Below the pieces are notes generated by a model. It had not been told where the DNA came from. It made no database searches and saw nothing but the letters and a program-made list of their open reading frames with translations. This document shows positions 35,372 through 38,898 of a DNA stretch of 64,000 bases, piece by piece. The DNA comes from Fimbriiglobus ruber (GTDB taxonomy: Bacteria > Planctomycetota > Planctomycetia > Gemmatales > Gemmataceae), in NCBI RefSeq assembly GCF_002197845.1, contig NZ_NIDE01000007.1:310001-374000 (forward strand), given 5' to 3'. Every line of letters starts with the position of its first letter. Positions within the stretch are counted from its first letter, which is position 1. The translations under genes and the position numbers were made by a program.

Positions 35372-36757
35372 TTACGCGAGATGGGTCAGGAAGCCGTAAT
35401 CCGCCGGGGCGCCGGCCGCGGAGCGATCGCCGAGGGTCATCAGTTCGGCTTCGCTGTTCACGAACCGGACGTCGCGGATGCCTTCGGCCATCAGCCGACC
35501 GGCGGCCTGTGCCCGATCCTCGCTGCCGTCCTCGGCGATCCCGACCAGCACTGCGGATACCGCGAACCCCTGGCGGCGTAGCATGCCCAGCGCGAGCGAC
35601 GTTTCGACCGGGACGCGCGGCAGGATGGCGATCAGGGTGGCGTCCTTCGGCAACCGCGGGGCAACCTCGAACACCATGTCCGGGAACGTCATCCCGTCCG
35701 TCAATTCGAGCCGGGCGAGCGCCTCGCGGATGAGTTGGAACTGGTCGAACCCCCGCCGCGTGTCGACGACCACCGGCCGCAGACGGTTGTTCTGTTCGAG
35801 TAATTCAAATCGTTCCCGGGCTTCGAACCGTGTCTCGTACCCTTGTTCCGGCGGTGGCTCCTCGGCCGTTTCTAGGGCCTCGTCGCGGATACGTTCGACG
35901 GCGTCCCGGCCGTTGCTCGCCAGCCCGACTTGTTGGTTCAGCATCGAAACGGCGTACGCCAGGGAGCAGGCGGCCGTCACCGCGAGGTCCGACCGCGTCG
36001 GTTCGCCGCGCTTCGGGAAGCCGGCCTTGTGGAAGTCGACCAGGATCGTCGCGCCGGCGAGCGAGGTGGGCTCGTAGATGCGCGAGTGGAGTTCGCCGGT
36101 CCGCGCGGTCGCCCGCCAGTGGACGCGCTGGAGCGGGTCGCCGAGGACGTACGGGCGGACGCCAGCGGTCCGCGTCGGGTCTTCGTACAGGCGGTTCGCC
36201 AGGCGGATCTCGCCGATCGGCCGCTTGGACGAAAAGTTGTAGCTCGGCAGCGGCAGGATCTTCGGGTAGACCATCACATAAGCGGGCTCGGCGAGCAGCC
36301 GGTGCCGGCGGTGGAGGCCGAACACGTCGCCCGTCTCGGCCGCACACGGCCCGATCGAGTAATACCCGCGACCCTCGAACGTGAGCTTAAACTTGACCGG
36401 TTTGACCTGTTTCGGCCGCAGGAACAGCACCTGAACACGTCGCCCCTTGACGGTCACGCGGGGCTTCGGCCGGACCTCCGCGGCCGGTAGCATGTCTTCG
36501 ACCAGCACCCAGCCGATCGGGATCGACCCCTCGTTCTTGAGCCGCAGCACGACCTCGATCGAGTCCCCGACTTCCAGCGGGTCCGTCGGGCAGGTCCGCT
36601 CGGCCGACAGGTTCGTGACCCACGCGCGGGCGAGGTAGCGGCTGAGGAGGTAGACGCCGAGCAGGACGTACCCGCCGAACGCGACCAACCCGGCCTTCAG
36701 CGCGAGCGCGAGGCCGAGTAGGGCGACGATGATGAATAGCCAGCGCCAGGATCGCAT
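35372..36757 (-). CDS. DUF58 domain protein
   Basis: Usually paired with MoxR ATPases in membrane-protein or extracellular-enzyme assembly systems. It has 461 residues. Two N-terminal hydrophobic segments (WLFIIVALLGLALALKAGLV, AFGGYVLLGVYLLSRYLA) are followed by a beta domain. The DUF58 hallmark is GVRPYVLGDPLQRVHWRATA, and a VWA-like C-terminal region follows (VVVDTRRGFDQFQLIREALA). The partner MoxR gene is upstream on the same strand, but an Rpn-like gene sits between them. Confidence 0.85.
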   Translation of the reverse strand: MRSWRWLFIIVALLGLALALKAGLVAFGGYVLLGVYLLSRYLARAWVTNLSAERTCPTDPLEVGDSIEVVLRLKNEGSIPIGWVLVEDMLPAAEVRPKPRVTVKGRRVQVLFLRPKQVKPVKFKLTFEGRGYYSIGPCAAETGDVFGLHRRHRLLAEPAYVMVYPKILPLPSYNFSSKRPIGEIRLANRLYEDPTRTAGVRPYVLGDPLQRVHWRATARTGELHSRIYEPTSLAGATILVDFHKAGFPKRGEPTRSDLAVTAACSLAYAVSMLNQQVGLASNGRDAVERIRDEALETAEEPPPEQGYETRFEARERFELLEQNNRLRPVVVDTRRGFDQFQLIREALARLELTDGMTFPDMVFEVAPRLPKDATLIAILPRVPVETSLALGMLRRQGFAVSAVLVGIAEDGSEDRAQAAGRLMAEGIRDVRFVNSEAELMTLGDRSAAGAPADYGFLTHLA

Positions 36758-36867
36758 CGGCGGGGGTGACTCCGGAAACGATGGCGCGAGATGTGGGTGA
36801 CACGGGACCGACCCACAGTTTTTACTGTCGGCAGTACGGTGTCCGAATACTCCGTCGATAGTCGCAG

Positions 36868-37149
36868 TTAGAGGCCCAGTTCGGTCAGAGCTTTGGCTTT
36901 CGGTGCGAGCGCGAACAGCCGGAGTAGCCGGTCGTCCGGGAGCGCTCGGAGTGCCAGAAGCGTGTCGGCCGACAAAGGGCCGAATTGGCTTTCGAGTAAC
37001 ACTTCCAGTGCTTCCAAACGACCCTCTTGCTTTCCCTCTTGCTTTCCCTCTTGCTTCCCCTCTTGCAACCCTTGTTGCCGCCCTTTTTGGAGGCCCTTTT
37101 CTAACCCCTCTTCCAGCCCGCGATCATAAGGTGTTTGATTCCGGTGCAT
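36868..37149 (-). CDS. Putative intragenic antitoxin (RpnS-like) from internal start
   Basis: The internal ATG at 37149 (MHRNQTPYDRGLEEGLEKGL) is in frame with the Rpn-like nuclease. It follows GGAGGGA at an 8-base spacing, better than the ribosome site at the full-length start. The 93-residue product would be the whole repeat region and C-terminal domain without the nuclease. E. coli rpn genes make such a short antitoxin from within the toxin gene. Expression here is inferred. Confidence 0.5.
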   Translation of the reverse strand: MHRNQTPYDRGLEEGLEKGLQKGRQQGLQEGKQEGKQEGKQEGRLEALEVLLESQFGPLSADTLLALRALPDDRLLRLFALAPKAKALTELGL

Positions 37150-37887
37150 GGTTGAAGTCCCTCCGAGTGTTTCTTTGGCTAGTGTATCGTAAAGTTCGAT
37201 CAGCCGGTCTCTCTCGACGGGGAGGTACGCGTACACACATTCTTCGAGGAGGAAACGCTGTTGGTCGGTAAGCGGCGCCCCGGCTATCCGCCGGAGGACG
37301 GCCAGGCCGAGTTCTTCAGCCCGGCTCTGGGGTATTCGCATCAGGGCCGATAGCGCGACCCCGAGCCAGTTCTCCCCCCGGGCATACGCCTCGGCGTCCA
37401 GCGCGGGCAGGCCCACGTACAGGTATTGTAACGTCAGGACCGGGAAATCCATGAAATAACGGAACACCCGATCGACGCCGATGCCGTCCAGACCGACGTT
37501 GAGATACAGAACGATCGGCAGGGCGGGGATCTGGTAGCGCTCGGTCAGGTGGAAATAATACGCCGGGAGGCGGGGCGTGATGCCGGTCGTCCGGTCGGCG
37601 GATTCGACCTCAATGTGGACAAGGGCAAGGCACGCGTCTGGGGCATCGGCTGGTTGGTCGGGGGAAACGGGCTCGCGGGCGCGGAGTTTCGCCACAAGGT
37701 CGAGCCGGTGGCGAGGGCCGTCGGGTGGTTCGGGCAGGAGTTCGGTGTCGATCCACTCGATGTCGGACAAATCGAGACGGGCCGCCCGGTCGGCGAAGAA
37801 GAGTCGAAGGAAATCGGCGAAAAAGAGCCGTATCAGCGCCTTGAACCGTTGGTCGTGGTCCCTCGGAATCGGGTCGGGTTCTGTCAT
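36868..37887 (-). CDS. Rpn-family PD-(D/E)XK nuclease-like protein
   Basis: A 339-residue protein. DQRFKALIRLFFADFLRLFF at the start, IDTELLPEPPDGPRHRLDLV and CLALVHIEVESADR carry the expected Asp...Glu-X-Glu nuclease core (residues about 15-115). The C-terminal third is a charged Gly/Lys/Glu/Gln repeat (EEGLEKGLQKGRQQ, then GKQE tetrads) followed by a DUF4351-like helical end. It lies between moxR and the DUF58 gene, 57 and 110 bases away. Rpn proteins in E. coli are DNA nucleases acting in phage defence; that role here is by homology only. Confidence 0.78.
   Translation of the reverse strand: MTEPDPIPRDHDQRFKALIRLFFADFLRLFFADRAARLDLSDIEWIDTELLPEPPDGPRHRLDLVAKLRAREPVSPDQPADAPDACLALVHIEVESADRTTGITPRLPAYYFHLTERYQIPALPIVLYLNVGLDGIGVDRVFRYFMDFPVLTLQYLYVGLPALDAEAYARGENWLGVALSALMRIPQSRAEELGLAVLRRIAGAPLTDQQRFLLEECVYAYLPVERDRLIELYDTLAKETLGGTSTMHRNQTPYDRGLEEGLEKGLQKGRQQGLQEGKQEGKQEGKQEGRLEALEVLLESQFGPLSADTLLALRALPDDRLLRLFALAPKAKALTELGL
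37158..37164 (-). promoter_or_regulatory. Internal ribosome binding site GGAGGGA
   Basis: Near-perfect Shine-Dalgarno sequence inside the Rpn-like gene, eight bases before an in-frame ATG at the junction between nuclease domain and repeat domain. Confidence 0.55.
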
Positions 37888-37944
37888 CGAGTTTCGATCC
37901 GAGTGAAACAGCCATTACGGGACGATACGCGACCGAGTCCGCAT

Positions 37945-38898
37945 TCACTCCCCCCGGTTGACCACCGGCACCCGGGCGTCGTCTACCAGTTCCTTCACCA
38001 CCACGGCCGGCGTCTTCTTCCGCAGGCGGCTCTCGGGCTTCAGGATGAGCCGGTGCCCGAGGACCGGGTGGGCCATCCGCTTGACGTCGTCCGGGGCTAC
38101 GAAATCCCGGCCCGCGATGGCCGCCAGCGCCTGCGAACACCGGAACAGCGCGATCGACGCCCGCGGGCTGCCGCCGAGCATGACGTCCTCGTGTTCCCGG
38201 CTCGCGTGGACGATGTCGAGGATGTACCGCTTCACCTTCTCGTCCAGGTGGATGTCCCGGATCGCGTCCTGGCACGCGATCACGTCCTGGGCCGAGACGA
38301 CCGGCTGCAGGTCGTCGATCGGGTGTCCCTTCTGGAGCCGTGACAGCATTTTCGACTCTTCCTCGTAACTCGGGTAGCCGAGGCTGAGGCGGACGAGGAA
38401 GCGGTCGAGCTGCGCTTCCGGGAGCGGAAACGTCCCCTCCTGGTCGACCGGATTTTGCGTGGCGATGACCAGGAACGGCGGCTTGAGGACGTAGGTCTGC
38501 CCGTCCGCGCTGACCCGCCGCTCGGCCATCGCTTCGAGGAGCGCGGCCTGGGTTCTGGGCGTCGCCCGGTTGATTTCGTCCACGAGCAGGGTCTGGGCGA
38601 AGACGGGGCCGGGGCGGAACTCGAACTCGGTCGTCTTCTGGTTGAAGATCGAGACGCCGGACACGTCCGTGGGCAGCAGGTCGGGCGTACACTGGAGCCG
38701 CTTGAAGGTACAGCCGACGCTCCGCGCGAGCGCGCGGGCGAACATCGTCTTGGCCACCCCCGGTACGTCTTCCAGGAGGACGTGCCCCTCACAGAAGTAC
38801 GCGGCCAGCGCAAGGTTGAGCTGCGGCCGCTTGCCGATGATGACCTTCTCCATGTTGGCGACGATCCGCCCCGCCGTCCCGGCCACGTCCACGCCCAT
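37945..38898 (-). CDS. MoxR-family AAA+ ATPase
   Basis: A 317-residue chaperone-like ATPase. The Walker A is EDVPGVAKTMFARALARS (about 38-55), Walker B LLVDEINRATPRTQAALLEA (about 108-127), sensor 1 LVIATQNPVDQEGTFPLPEA, and the C-terminal lid includes GASPRAS-type SPRASIALFRCSQALA. These ATPases usually act with DUF58/VWA proteins in assembly of secreted or membrane complexes; the DUF58 gene follows on the same strand. Length and motifs are complete. Confidence 0.93.
   Translation of the reverse strand: MGVDVAGTAGRIVANMEKVIIGKRPQLNLALAAYFCEGHVLLEDVPGVAKTMFARALARSVGCTFKRLQCTPDLLPTDVSGVSIFNQKTTEFEFRPGPVFAQTLLVDEINRATPRTQAALLEAMAERRVSADGQTYVLKPPFLVIATQNPVDQEGTFPLPEAQLDRFLVRLSLGYPSYEEESKMLSRLQKGHPIDDLQPVVSAQDVIACQDAIRDIHLDEKVKRYILDIVHASREHEDVMLGGSPRASIALFRCSQALAAIAGRDFVAPDDVKRMAHPVLGHRLILKPESRLRKKTPAVVVKELVDDARVPVVNRGE

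Follow-up and report, generated by a model that had tools for sequence, protein, structure and literature searches.

An in-frame internal start codon conserved within an Rpn-like nuclease gene of Fimbriiglobus ruber and its planctomycete homologues

Introduction

Does the predicted nuclease gene at positions 36868–37887 of a 64,000-nucleotide stretch of Fimbriiglobus ruber DNA (contig NZ_NIDE01000007.1, positions 310,001 to 374,000; this whole stretch is referred to as the window) encode one protein or two, and might the smaller restrain the larger? In E. coli, the small protein RpnS inhibits the nuclease RpnL, and this gene-within-gene design has been proposed to be broad (Zhong et al. 2023, PMC10327210). 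A sequence-only reading of the F. ruber gene had suggested the same architecture, with an internal start codon preceding a repeat-rich C-terminal domain. Here, we describe the gene, the evolutionary record of its internal start and the predicted structure of its products.

Results

Gene structure and internal start codon

The gene consists of a single open reading frame of 339 codons on the minus strand (36868–37887) that starts with ATG. Its product of 339 amino acids, termed L, is assigned from this frame together with its one close paralogue in the same genome, L002 (72% identical), and about 45 homologues. Within the frame, an ATG is located at 37149–37147 (minus strand; residue 247) that shares the stop codon of the long frame and opens a frame of 93 residues (36868–37149), the putative product of which is termed S. 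The motif GGAGGGA occurs at 37158–37164, leaving a spacer of 8 nt to the internal ATG. The in-frame ATG with a properly spaced GGAGGGA and a 93-residue product, as claimed by the sequence-only reading, was thereby confirmed. The 16S rRNA of the 12.36-Mb genome ends with GGATCACCTCCTTTCT at its 3' end, so that the anti-Shine-Dalgarno sequence is intact and can pair with the internal GGAGGGA. Among the 1036 ATG codons on both strands of the window, 22 (2.1%) are preceded by GGAGG at a matching distance. As about 2% of the ATG codons carry such a sequence, the internal site in a single gene is not decisive, and an ATG with a Shine-Dalgarno (SD) sequence has an appreciable chance of occurring in any one gene. 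A promoter scan of positions 36600–38100 yielded no sigma-70-like site, a result that neither favours nor disfavours an internal promoter like the one in E. coli.

Conservation of the internal start and its ribosome binding site

Full-length homologues, mostly 30–58% identical, were collected from 95 genomes of the family and from further genomes of the phylum. No homologue was found in the two genomes of the same genus, G001 and G002, which are only 86–87% complete, and the sole match among plasmid records was to one Synechocystis plasmid. In a codon alignment of 45 sequences, including that of the window, Met247 corresponds to ATG in 39, GTG in five and CGC in one. Val at this column was encoded by GTG in all five cases, while GTG represents 40% of the Val codons in these genes. 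The SD sequence occurs at a constant distance across the homologues, though it is encoded by different amino acids. At the fourth codon before the internal start, Arg was encoded by AGG in 9 of 10 sequences (expected 7%), Gly by GGA in 11 of 14 (expected 16%) and Glu by GAG in 20 of 20 (expected 49%). The use of the rare codons AGG and GGA indicates that codon choice tracks the SD sequence, not the usual bias. The binomial figures for this choice ignore shared ancestry; the pattern was kept after thinning by cluster. When each 50%-identity cluster was reduced to a single sequence, 13 of 15 sequences still had an SD match of 4 bases or more, and the SD position in these 15 sequences, less than 50% identical to each other, is occupied by 13 different dipeptides. 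Maintenance of Met247 for protein reasons alone was rejected, as Val is always GTG and the SD sequence is kept through different residues.

As a null, synonymous codons were resampled with each gene's own usage in 2000 draws. The family-summed SD score of 224 exceeded both the null mean of 167 and the null maximum of 199. In a scan over 324 codon columns, M247 reached a z of 6.0, which was equalled only by neighbours sharing the same SD sequence; the next independent column had a z of 2.9. Met183, which is ATG in all sequences and served as a negative control, is not preceded by an SD sequence. The mean SD match was 5.05 bases at the internal start versus 3.37 at the main start, with the main starts assigned by a simple rule. 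Weak internal SD sequences were observed in L110 and L092. The site is also kept in fragments and broken copies outside the test set (L098, L111, L121, L128, L131, L132 and the second copy in L085). The sequence-only reading had staked its proposal on an internal ribosome site that orthologues conserve. In the 45 homologues, this conservation was strong and went beyond the synonymous null. Judged from this alignment, the conservation puts the internal start far beyond chance, and the start is almost certainly real as a selected feature.

The purine-rich stretch might instead serve another purpose, e.g., to pause the ribosome between two domains without any internal initiation. The site is located at a domain boundary, where pausing could help folding. 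Such a pause, however, needs no start codon at a fixed distance, yet 44 of the 45 sequences have ATG or GTG here and Val never uses another codon. In addition, tail-only copies retain the same site. We regard this explanation as exceedingly improbable and continue with a selected internal start. Its loss has occurred: L086 is full-length with an intact nuclease motif and carries CGC in place of the start codon, indicating that S is not indispensable everywhere. L086 and L109 belong to one genus and both have Arg in place of the internal Met; the nuclease frame of L109 is also broken.

Predicted nuclease domain and family membership

An AlphaFold2 model of L (mean pLDDT 74) displayed a mixed alpha/beta N-terminal domain, a helical middle domain (residues 163–241; 37165–37401, minus strand) and a helical tail. 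Structure predictions took in the distant contig loci and left out the homologue loci from the genome searches. Foldseek yielded no match at E ≤ 0.001, and a sequence-profile search of the PDB returned nothing useful. With VIA-align, residues 5–162 matched mainly PD-(D/E)XK nucleases, with a best Z of 7.6; values under 8 are modest, and the top matches agree. These included McrC (7.6), EndoMS (7.2), Card1 (6.2), SduA (5.9) and BamHI (4.3). From the model and these matches, the putative PD-(D/E)XK domain was placed at residues 9–162 (37402–37863, minus strand), with a D...E-x-E motif formed by D63 (37699–37701), E93 (37609–37611) and E95 (37603–37605). D63 is present in 43 of 43 aligned sequences and E93 in 45 of 45, while position 95 is E in 37 of 45 and otherwise D, Q or K. 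The modelling supports a PD-(D/E)XK nuclease fold for the N-terminal part, with its acidic residues kept. Among the E-x-E relatives, L120 (1480–2409, minus strand) carries E-x-K, the textbook PD-(D/E)XK motif.

Most members have E, not Q or K, as the third motif residue, and stop codons or frameshifts disrupt several of the copies in relatives, both of which would be expected if the nuclease were catalytically dead and the gene regulatory or decayed. Against this stand the invariance of D63 and E93, the restriction of position 95 to E, D, Q or K, and the presence among the fold matches of BamHI, a working PD-(D/E)XK enzyme with E-x-E. A dead nuclease is, in our view, very unlikely, and L is treated below as a putative active enzyme.

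Met247 is positioned in a low-confidence linker of the AlphaFold2 model (residues 242–254), between the middle helical domain and the repeat-bearing tail. The claim that the start lies exactly between nuclease core and repeat domain therefore holds on the side of the tail, which the linker precedes; on the other side, the middle domain intervenes.

The window protein scored 11.1 bits against TIGR01784 (Rpn family recombination-promoting nuclease/putative transposase), compared to a cut-off of 52.1. The full-length relative L043 from Oceanobacillus passes with 59.2 bits, and the planctomycete relatives L136 and L138 are near the cut-off with 46–47 bits. In a profile-profile comparison, residues 6–117 of the N-terminal domain aligned with enterobacterial Rpn (Prob 90). 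DUF4351 (PF14261) was not matched by the tail of the window protein at the Pfam gathering score; the domain was detected in the tail of 26 of 41 aligned family members (E ≤ 0.01), and DUF4351 is the annotation given in some species to stand-alone RpnS proteins (PMC10327210). Searches of Pfam, NCBIfam and PADLOC with the window protein alone matched only Yae1_N and FliH, which were driven by the repeats and discounted. The fold and the D63/E93 motif bear out the earlier assignment as an Rpn-like nuclease, and since the score falls below the curated Rpn model, 'Rpn-like' is the right name. The gene is a divergent new member of the known Rpn design and not a new kind.

The same genome harbours a second, distant family at L003 (1384–2343, minus strand) and L004 (1408–2343, minus strand) with MRESxTYQ...EGREEG tails. 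GAGGAG precedes the internal ATG of L003, and only a weaker GGGGA that of L004. These two were scanned together with loci retrieved by similarity from other phyla. Of the 67 full-length ORFs, 65 contained one or more SD-like starts before or in the tail; as a permissive scan lacking a null, this only agrees with the broad design suggested by Zhong et al.

The repeat-bearing tail and the predicted small product

The S frame is predicted to encode a long repeat helix followed by short helices in a DUF4351-type tail. Within it, 12-bp tandem repeats (3.8 copies; 37022–37066, minus strand) encode four-residue QEGK units. The invariant F302 follows N250 at a distance divisible by four in 33 of 36 non-redundant sequences; from Met247 to F302, tail length across the homologues ranges from 25 to 109 residues. 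L096 and L097 come from two species of a single genus and are near-identical; their lengths in this region are exactly one EKGI-type four-residue unit apart. In L085, a tail-only duplicate is located downstream that has kept its own internal start and is two units shorter. The tail of L139 (1489–2637, plus strand) is greatly expanded by KLGESRGI repeats to 109 residues between the internal Met and the conserved Phe, in four-residue register. In L128 (1435–2274, plus strand), the nuclease frame is broken and the tail ORF retains the internal SD sequence and ATG; it is possibly an orphan antitoxin. A model of S alone (pLDDT 71) consists of a helix at residues 7–56 and three short helices. It gave only weak helical matches among the few chains compared, and 7TH0, the crystal structure of RpnA-S, was not listed among them.

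For E. coli Rpn, differences between strains in steps of four residues have been described, as have downstream rpnS copies and a failure to neutralise between partners of unequal repeat number (PMC10327210). The two copies in the F. ruber genome differ by 12 residues in the tail repeat helix, with the shorter repeat in L002. This difference, together with a helix that is quantised in steps of four residues among homologues about 30–70% identical, suggests that each S may be specific for its own L. We tentatively propose, with some doubt, that repeat number might act as a length code separating coexisting copies, each S neutralising only its own L.

Genomic context

The rpn-like gene is located between moxR (37945–38898) and a DUF58 gene (35372–36757). 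Of 20 relatives with a match to DUF58, 13 have moxR directly next to the DUF58 gene. This arrangement fits insertion of a single gene, which has been described for rpn genes. The neighbours at this locus (moxR, DUF58 and rho) do not constitute a defence island.

Discussion

We propose that one gene gives rise to two proteins by means of two start codons in one frame. L would be a PD-(D/E)XK nuclease in which the catalytic N-terminal domain is followed by a helical middle domain and a helical C-terminal tail, while initiation at 37149 would produce the tail alone, i.e., S with 93 amino acids, presumably in excess as judged from the E. coli system. As S carries the same repeat helix as the tail of L, the two should pair through this common helix of four-residue repeats, and the pairing would block cleavage as E. 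coli RpnS does on RpnL. Upon loss of pairing, L would be freed and may damage DNA during phage attack or other stress. Taking the analysis as a whole, S is probably made and probably inhibits L; a role of S as an antitoxin, and a possible role of the system in phage defence, are suggested by analogy with the work of Zhong et al. (PMC10327210).

The likeness to E. coli RpnL/RpnS comprises a PD-(D/E)XK N-terminal domain, an internal start with an SD sequence ahead of the C-terminal tail, repeats of four residues that are of the same type (KGIE/KQEG), a tail predicted as a long helix with short helices, tail-only duplicates downstream (here in a relative), and a patchy distribution with several copies per genome. 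The Rpn-type architecture suggested by the sequence-only reading recurs in about 45 planctomycete homologues, which share the start, the SD spacing and the four-residue repeats. In contrast to the enterobacterial proteins with E-x-Q, the present family has E-x-E and a DUF4351-type tail; furthermore, sequence similarity is only distant, and the gene is located outside a defence neighbourhood.

A small C-terminal protein produced from an internal start in a large gene is also a feature of Cas10d/Cas11d, and Cas11d has been cited as a gene-within-gene product of the cooperative type (PMC10327210). By this precedent, the internal start would be used but S would be a structural partner of L, namely an additional subunit for oligomerisation in the manner of Cas11d with Cas10d, and all sequence evidence on the internal start fits such a role equally well. 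Cas11d cooperates with its long protein, and the folds differ; the anatomy of the present family, with its variation by four residues and its tail-only duplicates, matches that of Rpn, whose small protein was shown to be inhibitory. We therefore consider a structural role unlikely and favour S as an inhibitor.

The design was previously shown by experiment in E. coli, and internal translation in C. difficile. The present findings would extend this gene-within-gene toxin-antitoxin design to a divergent planctomycete clade that is missed by current curated models, and they add evolutionary evidence, at the level of codons, for selection on the internal start. A start codon with an SD sequence conserved beyond the synonymous null, combined with a length quantised by four, could serve to find such genes in any genome without expression data. 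If the length code is true, gain or loss of repeats would create new incompatible toxin-antitoxin pairs across several planctomycete lineages.
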